Notes under the pieces: model-generated
Databases searched by the model: none
What the model saw: only the letters and a program-made list of their open reading frames with translations
What the model was told of the DNA's origin: nothing
Shown here: positions 3,569 through 16,440 of the stretch, in pieces
Position numbering within the stretch: the first letter of the stretch is position 1
Layout of the letters: each line of letters begins with the position of its first letter
Assembly (NCBI RefSeq): GCF_015277815.1
Contig: NZ_CP063813.1
Coordinates: forward strand, 2,542,001 to 2,606,000
Direction of reading: 5' to 3'
DNA: 64,000 nt
Source of the DNA: Microbacterium atlanticum
GTDB lineage: Bacteria; Actinomycetota; Actinomycetes; Actinomycetales; Microbacteriaceae
Position numbers and translations under genes: made by a program

Positions 3569-5822
3569 GCCGGCCCGTGCTCGCGGAGGCGAGCGGCTGC
3601 TGACCTTCTCGATCCTCGCGGCGCTGGTGGCCGCGCTGCTCCCGGTCGTTCGCGTCATCGAGCCCGGCTGGTGGCTCCTGGCGGCACTGATGCTGGCCGC
3701 GCTCGTCCTCGCCGCCGGCTACACCGCCCGCCTCTACCGTCTTCCCGCCGTCGCGGTGACGCTCATCGAGATGGCGCTGTGGACCGTGTTCCTCACGTTC
3801 GTGTTCCTTCGCGACACCGCCCTCCTGTGGGTGATCCCCACCCTCGACACCCTCCGCAGCGTGCCCGTGGTCGTCGAGGCGGCGATGCAGGAGATCCAGC
3901 TCGGTGCGGCGCCCCTCGAGCCCACCCTTCCGCTCGCGTTCGTCGTGGTCGGCGCCATGGGACTGCTCACGATCATCGTGGACCACGTCGTGGTGACGGC
4001 ACGGATGCCGCTGCTGGCCGCCGTCGGCATCGTCACGGTCTCGCTCATCCCGGCGATCGCCGCGCCCGCCGCCGTCGACGTCATCGGGTTCGTCTTCCTG
4101 GCGGTGACCATCCTCTTTCTGATCCGCTCCGAGACCCGCTCCCGCGAGAAGCCGCTGGAGCGCGAGGAGGAGCGCACGGCCGGCGTCCCGGCCACGGCGC
4201 TCGGCATCGGAGCCGTCGCCGTCCTGGTGGCCGTCGTCGTCACACCGGCCCTCCCGCAGCCGAGTGCGCGCCCGGGGGCCGGGCTCGGCCCGGGGCCGGG
4301 CATCGACGCGACGCTGCAGCTCGGGGACGACCTGCGTCGGCCCCAGGAGGTGGAGGTCATCCGGGTGCGCACGGACTCGCCCTCGGTGCCGTACCTGCGC
4401 GCCACGACGCTGAGCCGGTTCGAGGGCGGCGTGTGGGAGCCCGACCGCGCCCAGACCGTCTCCCTGGAGAGCGAGCGCGCGTTCGGCGAGATCGACCACA
4501 CCGAGGACATCCGCATCTCGGAGTACACCACCAAGGTCGATGTGGTGAACCTCGACTCCCCGTGGGCGCCCGTGCCGTATCCCGCCGTCGGCATCACCGG
4601 CCTCCGCGGGCTGTGGGGGGCGGTGCCCTACAACCGCACCGTGGCCACGACGAGCGACTCCACCATGGGCCAGTCGTACGAGGTGACGACCGCCTACCCC
4701 CGGCCGACGCTGGAGCAGGTGCGTGCGGCGACCTCCGTCGGCTCGCAGGTGCGGGATGAGACGACCGAGCTCCCCGCCGACATCCCTCCGCTCATCGGTG
4801 AGCTGGCCGCGCAGGTGACAGCCGGCGCCACCACCGACTACGACAAGCTCACCCTCCTGCAGCGGTGGTTCCGTGGGGTCGAGTTCACCTACTCGCTCGA
4901 CGCGCCGGTCGAGGAGGGCTTCGACGGCAGCGGCGCCGAGGCGGTGGCGAGATTCCTGGAGGTGCGGGAGGGCTACTGCGTTCACTTCGCGTCCGCCTTC
5001 GCGCTCATGGCCCGCACCCTCAACATGCCGTCGCGGATCGTGGTCGGCTACCTGCCCGGCACGCCCACGACCGAGAGCATCGACGGGCAGCCGGTGTACT
5101 CCGTGCTGAGCTCTCAGCTGCACGCGTGGCCCGAGGTCTACTTCGCGGGCATCGGCTGGATCCCCTTCGAGCCGACGTCGGGCCTCGGCACTCCGACGCT
5201 CTTCTCGGCCTCCTCGACGGCGCCCGGCGAGACGACCGATCCCGGAACCGTCGGGTCCCAGCCGACCGCGACGCCGTCGCTGCCGGCGGACGCCGGTCGC
5301 ATCGACGCGGAGGAGCAGCAGGCCGCCGACGGACCGGGAACCTCTCGTGACGCCGTCGATCCGCTGCCGCTGGTCGGCATCGTGACGGGGGTGCTCGTGC
5401 TGCTGTCTGTGCCGTTGGTCGTGAGGGAGCTTCGCCGGCGGCAGCTGGACGCCGCCGCGCGTACCGGAGACGCCGCTGCCGCATGGCAGTCGGTGCAGGA
5501 GGCGGCGATCGACGTGGCCATCCCGGTCCCCGCGAGCGAGACACCGCGCGCGTTCGCGCGCAGGCTGGTCGAAGAGCACGGGGTGGAGGCATCCGACATC
5601 GAGACGGTCCTGACCGCCATCGAGCGCGTCAGCTACTCCAAGGCCGGGACCCGCTCCTATTGGATGGGGGATGCCGCGGCCGTCGCGGCCGCCGCGGTGC
5701 GGGCGTCGCTGCTGGCGTCGGTTCCGCCCTCGCGCCGGATCCTGGCGCTCGCAGCCCCCCGATCGCTCATCATCCGGCCGGGCAGCGTCTATGCCGGATC
5801 CGCCCCGGTTCGGGCGCGGTAG
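3555..5822 (+). CDS. Transglutaminase-like membrane protein (TgpA family)
   Basis: The 755-residue protein begins with six or so membrane helices (residues ~20-230). A periplasmic-side transglutaminase-like domain follows: the catalytic Cys is near 475 ('REGYCVHFASAFALMAR') and the His near 523 ('HAWPEVYF'), followed by an acidic 'FEPTSG'. A further membrane helix lies near 604-625, with a DUF4129-like tail. The ATG at 3555 overlaps the DUF58 gene; an ORF extension to 3447 would overlap far more. This is the third member of the MoxR-DUF58-TgpA operon. Its substrate is unknown. Confidence 0.9.
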   Translation: MSSGEPARARGGERLLTFSILAALVAALLPVVRVIEPGWWLLAALMLAALVLAAGYTARLYRLPAVAVTLIEMALWTVFLTFVFLRDTALLWVIPTLDTLRSVPVVVEAAMQEIQLGAAPLEPTLPLAFVVVGAMGLLTIIVDHVVVTARMPLLAAVGIVTVSLIPAIAAPAAVDVIGFVFLAVTILFLIRSETRSREKPLEREEERTAGVPATALGIGAVAVLVAVVVTPALPQPSARPGAGLGPGPGIDATLQLGDDLRRPQEVEVIRVRTDSPSVPYLRATTLSRFEGGVWEPDRAQTVSLESERAFGEIDHTEDIRISEYTTKVDVVNLDSPWAPVPYPAVGITGLRGLWGAVPYNRTVATTSDSTMGQSYEVTTAYPRPTLEQVRAATSVGSQVRDETTELPADIPPLIGELAAQVTAGATTDYDKLTLLQRWFRGVEFTYSLDAPVEEGFDGSGAEAVARFLEVREGYCVHFASAFALMARTLNMPSRIVVGYLPGTPTTESIDGQPVYSVLSSQLHAWPEVYFAGIGWIPFEPTSGLGTPTLFSASSTAPGETTDPGTVGSQPTATPSLPADAGRIDAEEQQAADGPGTSRDAVDPLPLVGIVTGVLVLLSVPLVVRELRRRQLDAAARTGDAAAAWQSVQEAAIDVAIPVPASETPRAFARRLVEEHGVEASDIETVLTAIERVSYSKAGTRSYWMGDAAAVAAAAVRASLLASVPPSRRILALAAPRSLIIRPGSVYAGSAPVRAR

Positions 5823-5863
5823 CCGGGCAGGGTAGGATGGTCGGCGGCCCTCCGGGGCCGCCT

Positions 5864-5948
5864 GGAGGATTCGCCTAGTGGCCTATGGCGCACGCTTGGA
5901 AAGCGTGTTGGGTGCAAGCCCTCGGGGGTTCGAATCCCCCATCCTCCG
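5864..5948 (+). tRNA. tRNA-Ser(GGA)
   Basis: The acceptor stem GGAGGAT pairs with ATCCTCC. The anticodon stem-loop CACGC-TTGGAAA-GCGTG carries GGA, which reads UCC/UCU serine codons. The T arm GGGGGTTCGAATCCCCC is perfect, and a class-II extra arm sits before it. No CCA is encoded. It lies directly before the ars island, a classic position for integrated DNA. Confidence 0.97.
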
Positions 5949-6068
5949 CACCTGTGATCCCAGTGTTTTCAAGGGATCGGGACTCCTCCGAAGTTTGGTG
6001 GCAAGTCGGTGACATAGTTGCGCGGTCTCCGACCCACACCGCCAGGGCGGCCTGCCCGGTCGCCGCGA
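5949..6068. other. Non-coding junction between tRNA-Ser and the ars island
   Basis: These 120 bases are less GC-rich than their surroundings at the start ('gtgttttcaagggatcggg'). I see no gene here, no integrase remnant that I can name, and no copy of the tRNA 3' end. The minus-strand reading frame through it has no recognisable family. It may mark the left edge of the acquired ars segment. Confidence 0.4.
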
Positions 6069-6485
6069 TCATGCCGCACTACGTGTCGGAAGAATCTCCG
6101 CAAGCAGCGCCTCCACCCGACCACGAATCTCATCGCGAATCGGACGCACCGCCTCGATCCCCTGACCAGCAGGATCATCGAGCTCCCAATCCTCGTAGCG
6201 CTTGCCCGGAAACATCGGGCAGGCGTCGCCGCAGCCCATGGTGATCACGACATCCGATTCCTTCACGGCGTCGACGGTCAGCACGGTGGGCGTGTTGCCC
6301 GCAATGTCGATACCCTCCTCAGCCATCGCCTCCACAGCGACCGGGTTGATGACATCTTTCGGGGCCGATCCTGCCGAGCGCACCTCGACGTCGTCTCCCC
6401 CGAGCGCACGGAGATAGCCTGCAGCCATCTGGGATCGGCCGGCATTGTGGACGCAGACGAACAGAACGGTCGGCTTGTCACTCAT
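6069..6485 (-). CDS. arsC: Arsenate reductase, low-molecular-weight phosphatase type (mycothiol-linked)
   Basis: It reduces arsenate to arsenite in the cytoplasm. The 138-residue protein has the P-loop C-X5-R at C11-R17 ('CVHNAGR') and a second redox pair C85/C89 in 'TMGCGDAC', followed by the acid loop 'DWELDDP'. In actinobacteria this family usually works with mycothiol or thioredoxin. It is about 61% or more identical by eye to the reductase half of the fused gene just upstream. An inverted repeat at 6513-6536, between the two genes, is the likely operator. Confidence 0.93.
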   Translation of the reverse strand: MSDKPTVLFVCVHNAGRSQMAAGYLRALGGDDVEVRSAGSAPKDVINPVAVEAMAEEGIDIAGNTPTVLTVDAVKESDVVITMGCGDACPMFPGKRYEDWELDDPAGQGIEAVRPIRDEIRGRVEALLAEILPTRSAA

Positions 6486-6512
6486 AGCGGTGCCTCTTTC
6501 TCTCAGGAGAAA

Positions 6513-6536
6513 GCATAGACGGCTATCTATCTATGC
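6513..6536. promoter_or_regulatory. Candidate ArsR operator before arsC
   Basis: A perfect inverted repeat GCATAGA-N10-TCTATGC lies 28 bp upstream of the arsC ATG and overlaps the stop codon of the ArsR-ArsC fusion gene. It contains the string CATAGACGG-N8 ending in TCTAT (6514-6530), which recurs at the start of the fusion gene. The two sites are therefore probably bound by the same repressor. Confidence 0.6.
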
Positions 6537-7427
6537 ACGAGTTGCTGCAGGTAAACTTTCGGGGAACAGCTCAAGGAGCAGGCTGCGCACACGCCGTTCG
6601 ATGTCGTCCCTGATGACACGAACCCGCTCGGGCGACTTGCCAACCGGGTCGTCGAGCTCCCAGTCCAGGTACCGGCGGCCGGGGTAGACCGGGCATGCGT
6701 CACCGCAACCCATCGTGACGACGACGTCGGCCGCGCGGACGGCTTCATCGGTGAGCGGCTTCGGGAACTCGCCCCCCAGCGAGACGCCGATCTCGTTGAG
6801 CGCTGTGACGATGCTCTGGCGCACATCGCCGACCGGCTGCGAGCCGGCTGTTCGCACCGCCACTCTGTCGCCGGCGAGTTGTCGGAGGATTCCGGCGGCG
6901 ATCTGAGAGCGACCGGCGTTCTGCACGCAGACGAAGAGCACCGTGGGCACGGTCGGGGTGGGCGCGTCGTCACGATGGAGCGCCTCGAGCCGCGCAGCAG
7001 CGAACATGGCCGTGCGGCTGGTCAACATCGGGGACTGCGAGTGACCGGCCAGGCGTCGGTGACTGTCCAGGACGACCGCGTAAACGGTCTCGCGGCTGAA
7101 CACACCGTGGAAGCGCACGGACAGGGCGTCGGCGATGCGCTCGAGGTCGGGCTCGTCCGCGGGTTCTCGGCCGCCGACGATCGAGCCGACGAGGTCGGCG
7201 TGGGCAGGGGCGATCGAGTACCAGACGCGGCGCCCGTCCGGCTCGCGCACGACAATACCGTCGTCGTGCAGCGCCTTCATGTGGTGACTGACCGTCGGCT
7301 GCCGAAGCTCCAGCGACTTCGCCAGATCCCCGACGAGGGCTCGCCCGTCCTGCGCGTCGCGGATCAGGCCGAGTATGCGCACGCGCGTCGGATCCCCCAA
7401 TGAGGTGATACCCACCGCAGGTTTCAT
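6531..7427 (-). CDS. ArsR-ArsC fusion: HTH repressor domain joined to arsenate reductase
   Basis: The 298-residue protein has three parts. Residues 1-85 form an ArsR-type winged helix ('RQPTVSHHMKALHDDG' recognition helix near 42-57). Residues 95-155 form a helical linker like the N-terminal domain seen in some actinobacterial ArsC proteins. Residues 160-298 form a low-molecular-weight phosphatase-type arsenate reductase with C167-X5-R173 and C241/C245. There is no cysteine in residues 1-160, so the usual arsenite-binding site of ArsR is missing. I chose the ATG at 7427 because a 16-bp palindrome overlaps it. A GTG at 7448 would add seven residues. Confidence 0.85.
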   Translation of the reverse strand: MKPAVGITSLGDPTRVRILGLIRDAQDGRALVGDLAKSLELRQPTVSHHMKALHDDGIVVREPDGRRVWYSIAPAHADLVGSIVGGREPADEPDLERIADALSVRFHGVFSRETVYAVVLDSHRRLAGHSQSPMLTSRTAMFAAARLEALHRDDAPTPTVPTVLFVCVQNAGRSQIAAGILRQLAGDRVAVRTAGSQPVGDVRQSIVTALNEIGVSLGGEFPKPLTDEAVRAADVVVTMGCGDACPVYPGRRYLDWELDDPVGKSPERVRVIRDDIERRVRSLLLELFPESLPAATRA

Positions 7428-7441
7428 AGACGGAAGTCTAT
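7425..7441. promoter_or_regulatory. Candidate ArsR operator at start of the ArsR-ArsC gene
   Basis: The palindrome ATAGAC-GGAA-GTCTAT (7426-7441) covers the ATG of the fusion gene. With the preceding base it reads CATAGACGG-N3-TCTAT, the same core as the site before arsC at 6514-6530. Such a position would give tight autorepression and suggests a transcript with little or no leader. Confidence 0.6.
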
Positions 7442-7531
7442 CGACCACCCCGGCCGGCGTCGCACGACCGCAGACGCCAGATCAAGGGCATGAACCCCCA
7501 GACTCGTCACGGATGGTCGCGTCATCCATGC

Positions 7532-8041
7532 TCAGTCGCCGTCCATTGCGCTACGACGCTCGATGAGGAGGGTGTCGCGCCAGCAGCCGGCGTGCGGGCC
7601 GGCACCCGATCGTGCGATGCGTTCGCGCCGCCCCACCACTCGGAAGCCCGCAGCGGCGTGGAGCCTGAGGCTCGCGGCGTTCTCCGGGAAGATGCTCGAT
7701 TGGATCGTCCAGATGCCCGCGACCTCGGCGGCGTCGATGAACACGTCGAGCAGGCGGCGGCCGATGCCTTGTCCGCGGGCACTGCGAGAGACGTACACCG
7801 AGTGTTCGACGACTCCGCGGTACGCCGGACGGGAGGACACCGCGGACGCGGCGATCCAGCCGACCAGGGCGCCGCCCGCGTCGACAGCGACGAACCGCAG
7901 GGCCGGCAGCTTCGCCGCATCGAACGCCTCCCAGGTCGGGGTGGCGACCTCGAATGTCGCCTCCCCGTCCTCGATGCCATGTGCGTAGATCTCCTCGACC
8001 GCCGGCCAATCGGCCGGCGTCATCGCGCGCACTTCCGTCAT
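7532..8041 (-). CDS. GNAT N-acetyltransferase, phosphinothricin/arsinothricin (ArsN1-like) type
   Basis: The 169-residue protein has the PAT-type start 'TPADWPAVEEIYAHGIEDGEA', acetyl-CoA motif A 'ARGQGIGRRLLD' around residues 95-106, and the late motif 'NAASLRLHAAAGF'. Family members acetylate the glutamate analogues phosphinothricin or, in ars operons, arsinothricin. The ATG at 8041 overlaps the TGA of the flavoprotein gene by one base (TGATG), so the two are coupled. The arsenical substrate is inferred from context; other amine substrates remain possible. Confidence 0.8.
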   Translation of the reverse strand: MTEVRAMTPADWPAVEEIYAHGIEDGEATFEVATPTWEAFDAAKLPALRFVAVDAGGALVGWIAASAVSSRPAYRGVVEHSVYVSRSARGQGIGRRLLDVFIDAAEVAGIWTIQSSIFPENAASLRLHAAAGFRVVGRRERIARSGAGPHAGCWRDTLLIERRSAMDGD

Positions 8042-9354
8042 CAGCAGCAGCCACCGCCGTTGCCTGCATCGGTGGAGCACACCCCGGTCACGGGAAGCAC
8101 GAGCTCCACGTTCGACGCGGATGCGGTGTCGCCGGCGAGCCAGGCCGTCACCGAGCGCACCTGCTCGTAGCCGGTGGCGAGCAGGAACGTCGGCGCGCGC
8201 CCGTAGGACTTCATCCCCACGATGAAGAAGCCCTGCTCCGGATGCGTGAGCTCGCGGAAGCCGTGCGGCTCGACGGTGCCACAGGAGTGGACGTTCGGGT
8301 CGATCAGCGGCGCGAGGCGCTTGGGGGCTTCGACGATCTCGTCCAGCTCGAGGCGGATCTCTCGGAGGATGTCGAGGTTCGGCCGGAAGCCGGTGGCGTT
8401 CACGACGATGTCGGCCTGGTGGGTGACGACCTCTCCGTGGCGGTGGCCGACCAGCTCGACCACGTCACCCGCGCGGCGAGCACGGACGATCTCGAAGCCA
8501 TCGACGAGCGCGACGTCGCCGCGTTCCACGGCTCGGTCGACCCGGTTGCCGAGATCTGCACGACCGATCAGCTCATCGTCCGGTGAGGAGGTGACCCGCA
8601 CCGCCTTGGCGTTGCGGATCAGCCAGGTCACCGTGGTGCCCGACTCCTCCCGGGCGAGCTGCACCAGGGCCAGCAGGGTATTGGCGGCGGAGTGCCCCGC
8701 GCCGACCACGGTCACGCGACGGCCCGCGAACACAGCACGGTCCCGGCCGAGAACGTCGGGAAGCGCCGGAGTGACATTGTCACGGATGTCGGCCATCCCC
8801 AGGAGCTCCAGACCACTGGACGACAGCGAATTGGGGGATGTGTACGTGCCGGATGCGTCGATCACCGCGCGCGCGGGGATGTCCTCCACGTCGCCGTTCG
8901 CCGTCCGGACGCGTACCGCGAAGGGAGTGGCGGCGCGGCGGGCGGTGCGGGTCCGATCCATCCCCTCGCGGGTGACGCCGATGACTTCGACGCCAGTGCG
9001 GATGTGCGGGGCGATCTCGTCGAGCGCGGCGAGCGGCGCGACATACTTGTCGACCAGCTCCGTTCCCGTCGGCGCCCGCTCAGGGTCCGGCAGTTCCCAA
9101 CCGCGCTCCTCCAGCAGCCGGCGCGATGCCGGGTCGACGAGGTGCTTCCACGGCGAGAACAGGCGGGTATGCCCCCACGCTCGGACACTCGCCGCAACCT
9201 CGTCGCCCGCTTCGAAGACCAGGAAGTCGATGCCACGCTCGAGCAGATGGGCAGCGGCGGCCAGGCCGATCGGGCCGGCGCCGATGATCGCGACGGGCAG
9301 CGTCGACAGCGGGCCGGCGTCGGCGACGCGGGGGGTCAGGTCGAGCAGGGTCAC
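8041..9354 (-). CDS. FAD/NAD(P)-dependent oxidoreductase of the ars locus (ArsO-like)
   Basis: The 437-residue protein has an FAD Rossmann motif 'GAGPIG' at 25-30 and a second dinucleotide motif 'VVGAGHSAANTL' near 210, as in flavin monooxygenase-like enzymes. The C-terminus is 'VCSTDAGNGGGCC', with three cysteines in the last 12 residues. I chose GTG 9354 because GGAGG sits 5 bp upstream; a TTG at 9423 has no such site and would run through the operators. It is coupled to the acetyltransferase gene. A role in modifying organic arsenicals is plausible but unproven. Confidence 0.8.
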   Translation of the reverse strand: MTLLDLTPRVADAGPLSTLPVAIIGAGPIGLAAAAHLLERGIDFLVFEAGDEVAASVRAWGHTRLFSPWKHLVDPASRRLLEERGWELPDPERAPTGTELVDKYVAPLAALDEIAPHIRTGVEVIGVTREGMDRTRTARRAATPFAVRVRTANGDVEDIPARAVIDASGTYTSPNSLSSSGLELLGMADIRDNVTPALPDVLGRDRAVFAGRRVTVVGAGHSAANTLLALVQLAREESGTTVTWLIRNAKAVRVTSSPDDELIGRADLGNRVDRAVERGDVALVDGFEIVRARRAGDVVELVGHRHGEVVTHQADIVVNATGFRPNLDILREIRLELDEIVEAPKRLAPLIDPNVHSCGTVEPHGFRELTHPEQGFFIVGMKSYGRAPTFLLATGYEQVRSVTAWLAGDTASASNVELVLPVTGVCSTDAGNGGGCC

Positions 9355-9407
9355 AACGTCCTCCAACGGATATCGATGAACTTCGATGCCACGATTCTGA
9401 ACCCATC

Positions 9408-9441
9408 TATCGACGTCTGTCAATATCGACTAGTCTCAATA
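9408..9441. promoter_or_regulatory. Tandem candidate operators for the second ArsR
   Basis: TATCGAC-N4-GTCAATA (9408-9425) and TATCGAC-N4-CTCAATA (9424-9441) lie head to tail with a 16-bp period, ending one base before the arsR ATG. Each is an imperfect palindrome. A further palindrome ATCGA-N6-TCGAT lies at 9372-9387, near the divergent flavoprotein start. The set occupies the whole divergent promoter region and differs from the CATAGACGG sites used elsewhere in the island. Confidence 0.6.
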
Positions 9442-9442
9442 T

Positions 9443-9793
9443 ATGACCACGATGCTCGACGTGACCGACATCACCGCCGGCGTCTGCTGCACACCCCTCG
9501 TTCGCGAGCCACTGACCGCCGAAGAGGCCGAGCAGCTCGCCGTGACGATGAAGGCTCTCGCCGATCCGACCCGGCTCCGGCTCCTGTCCATCGTCGCTGC
9601 GTCAGACGACTCCGAAGCATGTGTCTGCGACCTGATCGAGCCGGTCGGGCTCAGCCAGCCGACCGTCTCGCACCACCTGAAGATCCTCACCACCGCGGGG
9701 TTCCTCACACGCAGCAAGCGCGGAACGTGGGCGTACTTCAAGCTCGTGCCCGGCGCGCTCGACCGCGTCTCACAGCTCCTCGTCGCCTCGTGA
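9443..9793 (+). CDS. arsR: ArsR-family arsenite-responsive repressor
   Basis: The 116-residue winged-helix repressor carries two cysteine clusters: C15-C16 near the N-terminus and C60/C62 in 'EACVCDL', the classic ArsR site at the start of the DNA-binding region. C15-C16 matches the N-terminal arsenite pair described for Corynebacterium ArsR. The recognition helix is 'SQPTVSHHLKIL'. It is the first gene of a coupled operon; its TGA overlaps the GTG of aqpS (GTGA). It probably binds the tandem TATCGAC sites just upstream. Confidence 0.93.
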   Translation: MTTMLDVTDITAGVCCTPLVREPLTAEEAEQLAVTMKALADPTRLRLLSIVAASDDSEACVCDLIEPVGLSQPTVSHHLKILTTAGFLTRSKRGTWAYFKLVPGALDRVSQLLVAS

Positions 9794-10479
9794 GCAACAC
9801 TATTCGTGCCGCTGCCGGTGAGTTCCTCGGCAGCGCAGGCCTCGCCGCGGTCGTGATCGGATCGGGCATCGCCGCCCAGCGCCTCTCCCCCGGTGATGTC
9901 GGTCTCCAGCTCTTGGAAAACGCGTTCGCCACGGCGCTCGGGCTTGCCGTGCTGATCGTCGTCTTCGCGACGGTGTCGGGATCGCACTTCAACCCCGTGG
10001 TGACACTCGTAGACATCACCTTGCACCGAAGGTCGTGGACGACCGCCGGTGTCTACCTGCCCGTCCAAGTGATCGGATGCGTCGCGGGAGCAGTGCTCGC
10101 CAACGTCATGTTCGCTGCACCGGCGATCGCATGGAGCACGACCGACCGCTCTGCCTGGCCGCTGCTGCTCTCCGAGGTGGTGGCGACCGCCGGGCTCGTC
10201 CTGCTGATCTTCGCCCTCGTGCGAACGGGCCGGTCGAACCTTGCTGCTCCCGCCGTGGGCGCCTACATCGGCGCCGCATACTTCTTCACCTCGTCGACGA
10301 GCTTCGCCAACCCCGCCATCACAATCGGCCGCATGTTCAGCGACACATTCGCCGGCATCGCCCCCGCGTCGGTGCTGCCGTTCATCGGAGCGCAGCTCGT
10401 CGGCGCGGCGCTGGGATACTCGGCGGTCCGGGTGCTGTTCCCGGTAGGGGTGCCCGCGCCCGCCGTCGCGCGGAGCTGA
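9790..10479 (+). CDS. aqpS: Aquaglyceroporin, arsenite channel (AqpS-type MIP protein)
   Basis: The 229-residue membrane protein has six helices and both MIP pore boxes: NPV at 68-70 and NPA at 174-176, with the selectivity-filter arginine at R181. In Sinorhizobium and others, AqpS replaces an arsenite pump and lets arsenite leave the cell passively after arsenate reduction. That fits here, because no ArsB or Acr3 gene is present. The GTG start overlaps the arsR stop. The TGATG at its end couples it to the MFS gene. Confidence 0.9.
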   Translation: MSNTIRAAAGEFLGSAGLAAVVIGSGIAAQRLSPGDVGLQLLENAFATALGLAVLIVVFATVSGSHFNPVVTLVDITLHRRSWTTAGVYLPVQVIGCVAGAVLANVMFAAPAIAWSTTDRSAWPLLLSEVVATAGLVLLIFALVRTGRSNLAAPAVGAYIGAAYFFTSSTSFANPAITIGRMFSDTFAGIAPASVLPFIGAQLVGAALGYSAVRVLFPVGVPAPAVARS

Positions 10480-11633
10480 TGCAGAGATCTTCGCGCGGAG
10501 GCGCCCGCCTTGCAGCACTCGCGCTGGCCCAGGTCGTCGCGTGGGGAGTGCTCTACTACGCCGTCCTGGTCGCCGCCCCCGCGATCGCCAGCGACACGGG
10601 GTGGGACGACGGTGCCATCTTCATCGCCATCACACTGGGACTGCTGACCTCCGCCGTGTGCGCGATTCCCGTCGGGCGCTGGCTGGACCGACATCCACGA
10701 CGCGTCATGGTCGCCGGTTCAATCCTGGCGACCGCCGCCCTCGTGGCGGCCGCAGCCTCCCCGACGATCTGGATCTTCATTGCGGCCTGGATCACCTGTG
10801 GCGCAGCACAGTCCGCTGTGCTCTACCAAGCTGCCTTCACCGTGATCACTCACCGCTACCGGTCAGCCCGACGTGGTCCGCTGACACTGGTGACGCTTGC
10901 GGGCGGCCTCGCATCCACGATCTTCGCGCCGCTCACGGGATGGCTCGTCCTGGCTGTCGGCTGGCGGACGGCGTTCGTCGCTCTGGCCGGGACCCTGCTC
11001 GTGGTCGTGATTCCGGTCTACGCATTGACCGTCGAGGCCCGGTGGCCTCCCTCAAGCGCACCTGCGATCGGCAACGGGGACGACGTGCGCGTGCTTCGAT
11101 CCGCCCGCTTCTGGATCATCGCCGGCTCGTTCGCGCTCATGTCCTTCTCGCTCTATGCGGTCACGCTGTCCGCGGTCCCTTCGTCGGTCGAAAAGGGGGT
11201 GAACCTGCAGGTCGCGGCGTGGGTACTCGGGCTCATCGGCGCAGGCCAGGTACTCGGCCGCCTCCTGTACCTGGCGATCCCCCACACCGCGGCGCCCTGG
11301 ATCGCGCCCGCAACGGTCGGCGCGCTCGGGGCGGCGGTGCTGACCGCCTACGGAATCGCTTCGGGCACGGCGGGTATCCTCGTCGCCGGGCTCGCAGCCG
11401 GCGCAATCCGTGGAGCCCTCACCCTCATCCAGGCGTCGGCCGTCGCCGATCGATGGGGCGCGGAGTCGTACGGCAGGCTCAACGGCGTCCTCGCCGCACC
11501 GGTCACCGCACTCACGGCACTGGCTCCGGGAGTCGCCGCCCTGTTGGCCGGGGCACTCGGATCCTATGCGTCGATGGCTTACGCGATGGCGTTCGTGTGT
11601 GCGTTGGGCGGGGTTGTCGCCATACGCCGATGA
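10479..11633 (+). CDS. MFS transporter of the ars operon
   Basis: The 384-residue protein has about 12 hydrophobic segments and an MFS motif A-like loop 'GRWLDRHPRR' near residues 65-75. It starts inside the stop codon of aqpS (TGATG), so it is the third cistron of arsR-aqpS-mfs. It could export an arsenical such as a methylated or acetylated species. It is not next to a GAPDH gene as ArsJ would be, and I cannot assign it to ArsJ, ArsK or ArsQ. Substrate unknown. Confidence 0.82.
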   Translation: MQRSSRGGARLAALALAQVVAWGVLYYAVLVAAPAIASDTGWDDGAIFIAITLGLLTSAVCAIPVGRWLDRHPRRVMVAGSILATAALVAAAASPTIWIFIAAWITCGAAQSAVLYQAAFTVITHRYRSARRGPLTLVTLAGGLASTIFAPLTGWLVLAVGWRTAFVALAGTLLVVVIPVYALTVEARWPPSSAPAIGNGDDVRVLRSARFWIIAGSFALMSFSLYAVTLSAVPSSVEKGVNLQVAAWVLGLIGAGQVLGRLLYLAIPHTAAPWIAPATVGALGAAVLTAYGIASGTAGILVAGLAAGAIRGALTLIQASAVADRWGAESYGRLNGVLAAPVTALTALAPGVAALLAGALGSYASMAYAMAFVCALGGVVAIRR

Positions 11634-11724
11634 TCGGTCAGGCGGCGCAACGACCCGGCTCGACCCACGCCGAGTGCGCTGTGGTCACGCGGCGCGTGCA
11701 CCGCCGACGTGCGCCCTGCTTCCA

Positions 11725-12252
11725 CTAGGAGTTGATCTGCTGGACGACGTCGTCCGCCGACTCCTCGATGGCCTTGCGCAGCTTCTCGTAGTCGTCGGCG
11801 TCGATCGCCTTGCTGATCCGCTTGTCGGCTCGGATGAGCGCCTTCTCGACGTTGTCGGCCCACCGGTCGTCCACGACGGCGACGAGCGCCGACGTGCCGG
11901 GCGCGAGGTACTCGTCGACATCGACGCCCAGCTTCTTCTCCTCGCGGTTCTTCTTGATCTTGCCGAGGATGGCGCCGATCCCCGCCCCCACCGCGGTGGC
12001 CGCCAGGAGCGGCGGCGCGAAGAGCCCCACCACGACACCCGCGCCGGCGCCCCAGGCGGCGCCGTGACCGACCGACTTGTCGCCGTGCTCCTTGACCTCG
12101 ACCTTGCCGTCCTTGTCACGAACGAGGACGACGGCGCCGATGACCTCGTAGCCGCCGGAATCCTGCCCGCTCCGAAGCGCCTGGTAGTCGTCCGACGCCG
12201 CGGACGCGTCGTCGTACGACCCGACCACCAGTGCAAGGTTCTGCGTGCTCAT
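11725..12252 (-). CDS. DUF1269-like membrane-associated stress protein
   Basis: The 175-residue protein has a ferredoxin-like start ('LALVVGSYDDASAASDDYQAL'), a Gly/Ala-rich hydrophobic hairpin at about 70-95 that resembles a glycine-zipper membrane segment, and a second alpha/beta half ('SALVAVVDDRW'). This matches DUF1269 proteins, whose role is unknown. The ATG at 12252 has AAGGAGAT eight bases upstream. It is a single gene with no clear operon partner. Confidence 0.75.
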   Translation of the reverse strand: MSTQNLALVVGSYDDASAASDDYQALRSGQDSGGYEVIGAVVLVRDKDGKVEVKEHGDKSVGHGAAWGAGAGVVVGLFAPPLLAATAVGAGIGAILGKIKKNREEKKLGVDVDEYLAPGTSALVAVVDDRWADNVEKALIRADKRISKAIDADDYEKLRKAIEESADDVVQQINS

Positions 12253-12375
12253 CGAGATCTCCTTCGATACTCGTCCGGCCGGTCGCGCGGACTGCGGTGC
12301 TGTGATCGTACGACCTCGGCGCGGGACGCGCGAGGGGTCTGACACGACGCCGGTCGGGCGCGCCCGGAGCGAGCC

Positions 12376-12807
12376 TCAGGTGCTCGGATCGTTCGGCGTG
12401 AAGTCCGTGCCGGCGACGCGCAGACGGTCGACGTCCAGGCTGTCGACCCGCACTTCGCCGAGCGTCACATCGGCGCCGTCTTCTGCGCCGGTGGGAACGG
12501 GGCCGGTGTCGATGTTCTCCTCGACCAGGGTGATGCCGCCCGAGCTGTTCGCCGACGACGCGAGATCCTCGATCCACTTCCGGCTCAGCTCGGGCTGCTG
12601 CGGATCGTCGAAGACGAACCGCAGCGGGATGGAGGGGTGAAGCCAGATGGTGCTCCGCCCGCCGGGCTGGCCGTCCGGATGCTTCCACGACAGCGTGAAG
12701 CTCTCGCCGCGGCGCAGCTTCGTGGCGATGACGACCTTCAGGTGCGCCAGTGCCCGGTCCTCGATGTGGATCGGTGTCGCCGAGCCCCCGTAGAAGATCG
12801 TTCCCAT
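12376..12807 (-). CDS. DUF7882 family protein (paralogue 1)
   Basis: The 143-residue protein shares a full-length core with the product at 16117: 'LAHLKVVIATKLRRGESFTLSW' versus 'LSHLQVAIGTKLRRNEPFFFTW' (split here to residues ~20-42), then 'GGRSTIWLHP' and 'SSANSSGG'. This family is common in Microbacteriaceae and is sometimes mislabelled as an ATP-dependent DNA ligase. No catalytic motif is visible. It has an acidic C-terminal tail of about 45 residues that the paralogue lacks. Function unknown. Confidence 0.75.
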   Translation of the reverse strand: MGTIFYGGSATPIHIEDRALAHLKVVIATKLRRGESFTLSWKHPDGQPGGRSTIWLHPSIPLRFVFDDPQQPELSRKWIEDLASSANSSGGITLVEENIDTGPVPTGAEDGADVTLGEVRVDSLDVDRLRVAGTDFTPNDPST

Positions 12808-12878
12808 GGCTCGAAGCATAGACCCGACGACGCGCTCAGCGCGGTGCGCGACGGAGGGAGGACCCACCGGCGAACGAG

Positions 12879-16001: not shown

Positions 16002-16116
16002 CGGTCACCCGTTCGTTTAGAGGGCCGCGCTTTCGCCGACCGAGCAGATGTCCGCCCGATGCGTGCTGGCTGTCGCAGAGTCTTGGTACGGGCATGCGCC
16101 CGTGCAGGGAGACAGT

Positions 16117-16440
16117 GTGGGCAAGTTCATCTACGAAAGCAGCATCCGGACGGACTTCGACGACCGGGTGCTCTCGCACCTCCAGGTGGCGATCGGGACG
16201 AAGCTCCGACGCAATGAGCCCTTCTTCTTCACCTGGCAGGGCGACCTCAGCACGGGCGGCGGCCGGACCACGGTGTGGGTGCACTCGGGAGCGAGCCTGG
16301 TCTTCAACTACTACGGCGGGCGCCCGGCGAGCATCAACCGCGCCTGGCTCGAGGCGCTGATGCGCACGGCCAACTCCCCGAGCGGGCTGTTCGTGGTCTC
16401 AGAACCGCCGGACGAAGGCGGCGCCGAGCCGATAGGGTGA
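16117..16440 (+). CDS. DUF7882 family protein (paralogue 2)
   Basis: The 107-residue protein aligns with the product at 12376 over almost its full length (KLRR, GGR-T-W-H, AN-SG motifs) but has no acidic tail. I chose GTG 16117, preceded by CAGGGAG. It lies 65 bp upstream of a cupin gene and may be co-transcribed with it. No enzymatic motif is visible and the function is unknown. Confidence 0.72.
   Translation: MGKFIYESSIRTDFDDRVLSHLQVAIGTKLRRNEPFFFTWQGDLSTGGGRTTVWVHSGASLVFNYYGGRPASINRAWLEALMRTANSPSGLFVVSEPPDEGGAEPIG

Follow-up and report, generated by a model that had tools for sequence, protein, structure and literature searches.

The flavin monooxygenase ArsV, reportedly described by Chen in 2021 and Zhang in 2022, is said to occur with ArsW or ArsK, and one operon layout is arsR-arsV-arsW. 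An ars cluster has reportedly also been described by Achour-Rokbani in 2010 for Microbacterium strain A33. The publications cited below by PMC identifier are represented here by excerpts. According to these, ArsN1 is an arsinothricin N-acetyltransferase (PMC6465285), and ArsR-ArsC fusions together with tandem arsC genes are reported in Microbacterium by a review which also names acr3 in Microbacterium sp. (PMC6205960). In the excerpted survey of Yang 2015, 18 of 18 MIP channels in ars operons occur without ArsB or Acr3, while 35 of 35 MFS carriers occur with one of these pumps (PMC4435449). Rhodococcus BCP1 shows the arrangement arsR-acr3-arsC-arsC...arsO (excerpt of PMC6514093).

The window analysed here, a stretch of 64,000 nucleotides, belongs to the complete genome of Microbacterium atlanticum, a single contig of 3.71 Mb. 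All seven island genes were verified at the positions given by the first-pass annotation (Table 1). Its inventory of two arsenate reductases, two ArsR domains, AqpS, an MFS carrier, a flavoprotein and an acetyltransferase is entirely present, with the qualification that one reductase and one ArsR domain reside in a single fusion protein. On balance, the locus is best read as an arsenic-detoxification island on the chromosome that comprises two circuits under separate control, one for inorganic and one mainly for organic arsenic. The arsR gene encoding a Cys-Cys repressor is located between the coupled operons arsR-aqp-MFS and flavoprotein-acetyltransferase. Start and stop codons overlap at flavoprotein/GNAT (TGATG), in agreement with the translational coupling noted earlier, as well as at arsR/aqp (GTGA) and aqp/MFS (TGATG). 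The flavoprotein ORF extends to 9423, but the likely GTG start at 9354 is preceded by GGAGG, and the database copy P0001 comprises 437 aa.

The left flank of tRNA-Ser(GGA) and transglutaminase is found in the window and in 6 of 80 fetched loci. In an Rfam search of positions 5500-12500 at the gathering threshold, this tRNA was the sole match. Integration of the island at the tRNA gene was considered and rejected, as the G+C profile in 1-kb windows carries no clear foreign mark (island 0.65-0.70, upstream 0.71-0.74, downstream 0.68-0.73).

Table 1. Features of the ars island and its left border; positions refer to the window.
Feature	Positions	Strand	Remarks
tRNA-Ser (GGA)	5864..5949	+	adjoins island
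arsC, arsenate reductase, LMW-phosphatase fold	6069..6485	-	P-loop CVHNAGRS, GCGDACP cysteines
Putative ArsRC operator ATAGA-N6-TCTAT, upstream of arsC	6515..6530	none	
ArsR-ArsC fusion (arsRC)	6531..7427	-	likely ATG start 7427; longest ORF to 7448
Putative auto-operator ATAGAC-GGAA-GTCTAT, spanning arsRC start	7426..7441	none	
GNAT acetyltransferase, ArsN1-like	7532..8041	-	ArsN1 family A 121.8 bits, cut-off 170
FAD/NAD(P)H flavoprotein, candidate ArsV/ArsO-type	8041..9354	-	invariant Cys358, C-terminal TGVC...CC tail
Putative ArsR operators, two overlapping TATCGAC...CAATA, between flavoprotein and arsR	9408..9441	+	
arsR	9443..9793	+	N-terminal Cys-Cys (GVCC) and CVC motif
MIP-family channel, AqpS-like	9790..10479	+	GTG start 9790; 4-bp overlap with arsR
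MFS carrier, ArsK-like	10479..11633	+	ArsK model 140.6 bits, cut-off 400

The first circuit would comprise ArsC and the ArsR-ArsC fusion, both of which are predicted to reduce arsenate. In a single ORF, the fusion combines HTH_5 (residues 19-66) with LMWPc (170-291), arranged as a winged-helix repressor devoid of cysteine, a three-helix bundle and an arsenate reductase. Both the separate ArsR (87.7 bits) and the fusion (69.8 bits) exceed the cut-off of 55 of the metalloregulator ArsR/SmtB model NF033788. Since the repressor half contains no cysteine, the cue for induction probably arrives through the protein's own arsenate-reductase domain. Of 29 proteins retained by a filter on length and P-loop, 26 likewise lack a cysteine before the P-loop. 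Of the three exceptions, L081 has a cysteine at residue 122, whereas L088 and L096 begin with un-ArsR-like stretches and are therefore probably not true ArsR-ArsC fusions. The motif ATAGA-N6-TCTAT occurs at exactly two places in the 3.71-Mb genome, namely at arsC and at arsRC (reversed-pattern control 0), and the fusion is proposed to repress both genes, including its own, through these sites. Across the genus loci, 27 of 37 arsRC and 28 of 63 arsC genes have the motif at their start (control 0), and it is missing at the remaining 10 and 35 starts, respectively.

Arsenite would then exit the cell by following its gradient through the AqpS-like channel. This protein matches PF00230 with 72.2 bits (cut-off 25), and of the two NPA-type motifs the first reads NPV and the second NPA. 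The first-pass annotation had found neither ArsB nor Acr3 in the window; this extends to the whole one-contig genome, the area just outside the window included, where nothing reaches either model cut-off, so that a pump hidden elsewhere is excluded by the profile search. The sole SBF-family (PF01758) match is a BASS-like transporter, which scores 34 bits with the Acr3 model (cut-off 282.8) and 200 bits with TIGR00841 (cut-off 326). The sole match of the ArsB model, in a DASS-like symporter, reaches 19.4 bits (cut-off 22.2). ArsH remains below its cut-off in this genome (19.8 vs 292), and ArsI gives no match. A permease of the ArsP_1 family (PF03773) above cut-off is encoded at 3.65 Mb, neighboured by a TIGR03943 protein and a Fur-type regulator, with no ars genes in the 3.8 kb viewed.

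The presence of Acr3 in related genomes was also examined. Among 149 congeneric genomes, 66 encode the channel (matches above 100 bits, compiled by hand and including one split gene, G053), 49 encode Acr3 and 8 encode both, with a one-sided Fisher p=8.3e-7 that ignores kinship. In the 80 fetched loci the channel is found 40 times and Acr3 nine times, never together. As channel and Acr3 avoid each other in this way, the channel probably takes over from the Acr3/ArsB pump. AqpS-based exit without a pump, invoked in the first-pass annotation, is indeed already published, as the excerpt of PMC4435449 indicates; this layout and ArsR-ArsC fusions, both in print in the excerpted sources, are thus already known.

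In the second circuit, the Cys-Cys ArsR is predicted to repress both divergent operons. Two putative ArsR-type sites were found with up to two mismatches, compared with 0.01 expected, and TATCGA-N4-TGTCAATA is present in 59 of 80 genus loci. The model of the Rv2640c-family ArsR (NF041413) gives this regulator 103.8 bits, below the cut-off of 155. The neighbourhood envisaged by the first-pass annotation is conserved: among 80 same-genus loci, arsR (79 loci), GNAT (60) and arsC (60) lie within 3 kb of the flavoprotein gene, but MFS in only 9. As these loci were selected by a flavoprotein search, the counts measure flavoprotein surroundings and not island frequency. The sample contains 60 of the 64 listed matches down to G104 (at least 57% identity), all except the window's own, G132, G044 and G016, plus 20 weaker or partial matches. 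In 69 of 80 named loci from several phyla, the best 80 of at least 161 flavoprotein relatives, an ars core gene is no more than 3 kb away. In the other 11, no ars core gene was detected with window-derived queries, and in four of these the adjoining MFS resembles that of ars-linked loci. The family extends over several bacterial phyla and 133 plasmid records. Two Ensifer plasmids carry the order GNAT-arsR-flavoprotein-arsK, with ArsK above its cut-off and a flavoprotein 48% identical to that of the window, and on a Paenibacillus plasmid an ArsN1 family A protein above cut-off adjoins a flavoprotein relative.

The flavoprotein has a two-domain FAD and NAD(P)H fold, as indicated by Pfam Pyr_redox_3, GxGxxG motifs, a structure model and PDB matches. 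Its relatives bear the public names "FAD-dependent oxidoreductase" and "NAD(P)-binding (domain-containing) protein". Only four cysteines are present (358, 426, 436 and 437), none of them in the FAD-binding GxGxxG region, and Cys358, Cys426 and Cys437 are invariant in 30 of 30 sequences. The C-terminal LPxTGVC...CC motif is shared by 80 of 81 genus proteins and, by a regular-expression count from which split alignments hide some, by 73 of 80 loci. In the structure model, which lacks FAD, this tail is disordered. It is a candidate arsenic-capturing arm. As an indicator that a locus is ars-linked, the tail was discarded: it is present in several loci where no ars gene was detected, so that it marks the protein family rather than proven ars linkage. 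The distant homologues L140-L142 (36-37% identity) have neither tail nor detected ars genes. Membership in the NCBIfam families ArsO (NF040505, 50.8 bits, cut-off 425) or YpdA/Bdr (TIGR04018, 52.6 bits, cut-off 339.9) was dismissed, as both scores are far below cut-off. The fold leaves the chemistry undecided, because a bacillithiol disulfide reductase outranks flavin monooxygenases in the fold search.

For the GNAT protein, the best NCBIfam match is ArsN1 family A (NF040503), but it misses the ArsN1 cut-offs and Arg75 is replaced by Ser. In place of the motif Arg75-x-Arg77-x-x-Tyr80, located by motif spacing and not by alignment with PpArsN1, the window reads S-S-R-P-A-Y, keeping Arg77 and Tyr80. 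Ser is also found at the Arg75-equivalent position in 57 of the 58 readable relatives (65 sequences in total). In three loci, GNAT is joined to ArsR in ArsR-ArsN1-like fusions. The MFS carrier is the only strong ArsK-like (NF033733) match in the genome (140.7 bits, the other 20.2) and is 33% identical to an annotated ArsK over 274 aa. The labels of flavoprotein, GNAT and MFS stay "-like", because these proteins fall short of the cut-offs for ArsO, ArsN1 and ArsK, respectively.

The flavoprotein is most likely an ArsV-type monooxygenase whose targets would be trivalent organoarsenicals, handled together with its ArsN1-like and ArsK-like partners. Upon induction, its mobile C-terminal thiols may capture a trivalent arsenical, and the enzyme would then oxidise it, at the expense of NAD(P)H and O2, to a pentavalent form of lower toxicity. 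Acetylation of an amine-bearing arsenical could fall to the ArsN1-like enzyme, and export of the product or of residual trivalent species to the ArsK/ArsW-like carrier. The combined inorganic/organoarsenical module suggested by the first-pass annotation is partly supported, by the missing pump and the conserved ars-linked neighbourhood, and neither of the two counter-findings named there turned up in the searches made; GNAT and MFS stay below the ArsN1 and ArsK cut-offs, and all substrates are presumed ones.

High-Mr thioredoxin reductases possess a C-terminal redox shuttle, and the flavoprotein's C-terminal Cys pair could serve likewise if the enzyme were a disulfide reductase and regenerated the thiols that partner both arsenate reductases, rendering the island inorganic-only. 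The best fold matches are indeed YpdA/Bdr bacillithiol disulfide reductases (TM 0.80 by target), YpdA is the top NCBIfam match, and arsC is near the gene in most genus loci. We nevertheless hold this role to be unlikely: the FAD-binding region lacks a cysteine, L128, L134, L230 and L231 combine the flavoprotein with arsR, MFS and GNAT but no arsC in the stretch read, and a separate trxB lies close by in Paenibacillus L232. Less probable still is a direct or auxiliary role of the flavoprotein in the oxidation of inorganic arsenite or antimonite, with GNAT and MFS as incidental passengers. On the two Ensifer plasmids, the relative is encoded about 4 kb from annotated arsenate reductase (azurin) subunit genes, which we take to be aioBA. 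The precedent, known by description and not by sequence, is Agrobacterium AioE, a TrkA-family oxidoreductase co-transcribed with arsR-arsC-arsC-acr3 and reportedly needed for arsenite oxidation (excerpt of PMC5270249). Next to two arsenate reductases, however, arsenite oxidation would form a futile cycle, and GNAT and an ArsK-like carrier recur across phyla, GNAT in three loci even as a fusion with ArsR.

It appears very improbable that the substrate of flavoprotein and acetyltransferase is a non-arsenical compound, similar to phosphinothricin or methionine sulfoximine, and that the two are merely co-regulated with the ars genes. Several of the nearest solved GNAT relatives are named phosphinothricin acetyltransferases, and the ArsN1 cut-offs are missed; on the other hand, the phosphinothricin model scores the protein at 50.8 bits, lower than the 121.8 bits of ArsN1 family A, and the three-cysteine tail and ArsR linkage suggest a thiophilic metalloid.

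Beyond the ArsV-type reading, a further idea is put forward with low confidence. Flavoprotein, acetyltransferase and carrier might together make up a widely distributed cassette that confers immunity to a naturally occurring organoarsenical antibiotic with an amine group, be it arsinothricin or an unknown relative. In much the way proposed for the C-terminal cysteines of mercuric reductase, the LPxTGVC...CC arm could seize the toxic trivalent form and hand it to the flavin, after which the acetylase would cap the pentavalent product and the carrier export it. The ArsR-ArsN1-like fusions might then be sensors specific to this antibiotic, and the Cys-less ArsR-ArsC fusion might be a repressor that uses its own enzyme as sensor. 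More generally, the analysis offers a testable function for a flavoprotein annotated only in general terms, and the almost invariant cysteine arm leads to a precise prediction of arsenic handling. To our knowledge, few producers of organoarsenical antibiotics are known, and the flavoprotein's association with acetylases of the arsinothricin type would point to a wider pressure of such antibiotics on soil bacteria than these producers imply. The channel/pump avoidance within one genus offers a natural comparison of passive and active arsenite exit.

Compared with ArsV and its partners ArsW or ArsK, to which it is likened by description and not by sequence, the locus shares an FAD/NAD(P)H flavoprotein, an ArsR-controlled set and an MFS of the ArsK kind. 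Such a set with an ArsK/ArsW-type MFS is found for the flavoprotein family, while ArsR control in the window is suggested by position. The layout differs, as the MFS gene follows the aquaporin gene in the divergent operon and GNAT is coupled to the flavoprotein. ArsK is an arsenite/methylarsenite efflux MFS, which the window carrier resembles, yet below the ArsK cut-off; an excerpted review table links Ensifer adhaerens with arsK, and the flavoprotein family's gene set occurs there. With the studied ArsN1 (excerpt of PMC6465285), the window protein shares its nature as a PAT-like GNAT in an ars cluster, but carries Ser instead of Arg75 and stays below the family cut-off. ArsO of Streptomyces FR-008 and Rhodococcus BCP1 is likewise a flavoprotein beside ars genes, although the window protein falls far short of its model. 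The BCP1 order (excerpt of PMC6514093) resembles locus L196, a likeness of arrangement and not of sequence. In one Streptomyces, one Rhodococcus and one Paenibacillus plasmid, a member of the flavoprotein family is accompanied by a separate ArsO-like protein of about 350 aa (236-262 bits, below cut-off). Whereas acr3 belongs to the reviewed Microbacterium sp. ars clusters, it is absent from this genome. The likeness to the aqpS operon of Sinorhizobium meliloti lies in an aquaporin instead of ArsB/Acr3; in the window, however, an MFS carrier follows the MIP channel, while the MFS carriers of the excerpted survey accompany ArsB or Acr3.

The island comprises seven closely packed arsenic genes beside tRNA-Ser(GGA), and the gene content given by the first-pass annotation is correct. 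The nearest named proteins come from Microbacterium. Flavoprotein and GNAT as well as channel and carrier overlap in TGATG, and arsR and channel in GTGA, which suggests translational coupling of each pair. The longest open reading frame of the flavoprotein starts at 9423; its true start is likely 9354, where a GTG is preceded by GGAGG, as the database copy (P0001) also has 437 aa. The left border of transglutaminase and tRNA-Ser(GGA) is common to the window and the loci L041, L042, L044, L053, L058 and L067, and this chromosomal position is thus old or has been used repeatedly. In L104 and L105, both features are present with the tRNA on the opposite strand. Downstream of the island, two short proteins of similar sequence (12376-12867 and 16048-16440) lie on opposite strands and are apparently paralogues, judged by eye.

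Features of the island (window positions) and of loci fetched around flavoprotein relatives (L-numbers)
Feature	Position	Strand	Remark
tRNA-Ser(GGA)	5864-5949		adjoins island
ArsC	6069-6485	minus	
ATAGA-N6-TCTAT	6515-6530		before arsC
ArsR-ArsC fusion (arsRC)	6531-7427	minus	
ATAGA-N6-TCTAT	7426-7441		over arsRC start
GNAT acetyltransferase	7532-8041	minus	
Flavoprotein	8041-9354	minus	
TATCGAC...CAATA, two overlapping sites	9408-9441		between flavoprotein and arsR; 0.01 expected in window
ArsR	9443-9793	plus	
MIP channel	9790-10479	plus	
MFS carrier	10479-11633	plus	
ArsR fused to ArsN1-like GNAT	L128 4970-5863		divergent to flavoprotein
ArsR fused to ArsN1-like GNAT	L134 4789-5625		divergent to flavoprotein
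ArsR fused to ArsN1-like GNAT	L230 4001-4888		divergent to flavoprotein
ArsO-like second flavoprotein	L231 3746-4807		Streptomyces plasmid
ArsO-like second flavoprotein	L230 7588-8664		Rhodococcus plasmid
ArsO-like second flavoprotein	L232 3175-4224		Paenibacillus plasmid

The absence of ArsB and Acr3, initially noted for the window, holds over the whole host genome, which was searched as a single 3.71-Mb contig. Its sole SBF protein is BASS-like, and its sole ArsB-like match sits in a DASS-like symporter, under the cut-off. In the same genome, the ArsH match is under the cut-off and ArsI has no match. An ArsP reading of a distant PF03773 permease (G000:C1 3653184-3654032, locus L229) was not adopted; its neighbours are a TIGR03943 protein and a Fur-type regulator, and its weak NCBIfam matches are Cu/Zn and other efflux transporters. 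Among 149 genomes of the genus, including the window's own, Acr3 exceeds the cut-off in 49 and a close relative of the channel exceeds 100 bits in 66. Both occur together in 8 and neither in 42 (one-sided Fisher p=8.3e-7, uncorrected for kinship). In the 80 fetched genus loci, the channel is found in 40, Acr3 in 9, and both in none. This avoidance agrees with a published survey, in which each of the 18 MIPs located in an ars operon lacked ArsB and Acr3 (Yang 2015, PMC4435449). Given the missing pump, the rare co-occurrence and the layout in that survey, the MIP channel, whose first NPA box is NPV, is best read as the arsenite exit.

The flavoprotein matches at E<=0.001 in 139 of the 149 genomes, in some weakly. 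The check for a conserved neighbourhood was run on 80 genus loci, taken mostly around the stronger matches, and bears out the association: within 3 kb of the flavoprotein, arsR occurs in 79, GNAT and arsC in 60 each, the channel in 37, arsRC in 33, MFS in 9 and Acr3 in 7. In a phylum sample, 20 of 296 genomes match at 1e-40, including the window's own and one congener; the 20 loci fetched from this search contain arsR (15), GNAT (7) and MFS (7), with the order MFS-flavoprotein / arsR-GNAT in L128, L133, L134 and L137. Named loci, the best 80 of 161 relatives, derive from Actinomycetota, Pseudomonadota, Bacillota, Bacteroidota and Chloroflexota; an ars core gene lies within 3 kb in 69, MFS in 27 and GNAT in 20 of these 80. 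Two Ensifer adhaerens plasmids carry GNAT-arsR-'FAD-dependent oxidoreductase'-arsK, with ArsK at 513 bits (cut-off 400), and the gene following the flavoprotein in Pseudorhizobium is also ArsK over the cut-off (491.8 bits). An ArsN1 family A gene (197.8 bits, cut-off 170) lies next to the flavoprotein, and convergent with it, on a Paenibacillus plasmid. The window's MFS carrier is the sole strong ArsK-like match in its genome (140.7 bits; the other match reaches 20.2).

Plasmid pCP of the plant-associated relative Clavibacter phaseoli encodes Acr3-arsC-flavoprotein-GNAT (L226 4401-7838), its flavoprotein being 61% identical to the window's. In L101 (genome G091, 68% estimated completeness), the flavoprotein and a nearby Acr3 are each split over several frames, through either real decay or an assembly error. 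A shorter second flavoprotein (~350 aa), ArsO-like at 236-262 bits and under the cut-off of 425, accompanies the Cys-tailed one on several plasmids.

Among 81 flavoproteins of the genus, 80 carry the C-terminal end [LV][PS]xT[GD]VC-x(4-18)-CC; the remaining one stems from a broken gene. All 30 proteins compared, which span several phyla, have Cys358, Cys426 and Cys437, and nearly all have Cys436. The window's flavoprotein has these four cysteines only, hence no CxxC near the flavin. AlphaFold models the body confidently (mean pLDDT 86), while residues 423-437, almost all below 50, probably form a mobile arm. The arm is absent from the distant relatives in L140-L142, which lack detected ars neighbours; Cys358 is kept in both aligned members. 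Bacillithiol disulfide reductase ranks first by fold, followed by flavin-dependent monooxygenases and ferredoxin-NADP reductases, so a reductase cannot be told from a monooxygenase by fold alone. ArsV is a flavin monooxygenase according to the title of its paper, and reviews cite it as a methylarsenite oxidase whose product or substrate is exported by ArsW, ArsP or ArsK (PMC10080717, PMC11719878, PMC9144182). As the family's gene company fits ArsV best among the named functions known to us, the flavoprotein is most likely ArsV-type, and it is not filed as ArsV.

The GNAT is ArsN1-like but under the cut-off. With Arg75 and Arg77 of PpArsN1 as reference positions (PMC6465285) and mapping by motif spacing, 57 of the 58 relatives that could be read have serine at the Arg75 equivalent, and the Arg77 position is kept. 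Because of this serine, the substrate may be a different amine-bearing arsenical. In L128, L134 and the Rhodococcus plasmid pNAPH, ArsR and the ArsN1-like GNAT form one protein; for L128, both matches lie inside one ORF. Such a fusion suggests that its repressor part is specific for the substrate of the acetylase.

Two classes of putative operator, by their positions, point to two regulators: arsC and the fusion's own gene seem to be under the control of the ArsR-ArsC fusion, and the two divergent operons under that of the separate ArsR. The whole genome contains exactly two copies of ATAGA-N6-TCTAT and none of the reversed control pattern. In the genus loci the motif gives 64 sites in 1.03 Mb (control 0) and lies around the gene start of 27/37 arsRC and 28/63 arsC genes; it is common, though far from universal, and mostly absent where the fusion is lacking or divergent. 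TATCGA-N4-TGTCAATA was found in 59 of the 80 genus loci. The separate ArsR contains vicinal cysteines as well as a CVC motif. The window's fusion has no cysteine N-terminal to the reductase P-loop, as is the case for 26 of 29 fusion candidates examined, and two of the three exceptions are probably not fusions. Lacking such cysteines, the fusion, if arsenic-sensing, would have to sense through its reductase domain.

The combined inorganic and organic arsenic system proposed initially is plausible, with support exceeding its original basis; its enzymatic half we infer. In the open-licence literature, no description was found of the combination of channel, carrier and flavoprotein-GNAT with two operator-like site classes, or of the cysteine arm, which the primary ArsV papers might describe. 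The individual parts are of already known kinds. The flavoproteins of Ensifer and the window share 48% identity over 427 aa, and the Ensifer GNAT is likewise under the ArsN1 cut-offs; this GNAT keeps both arginines (R-P-R-P-A-Y).
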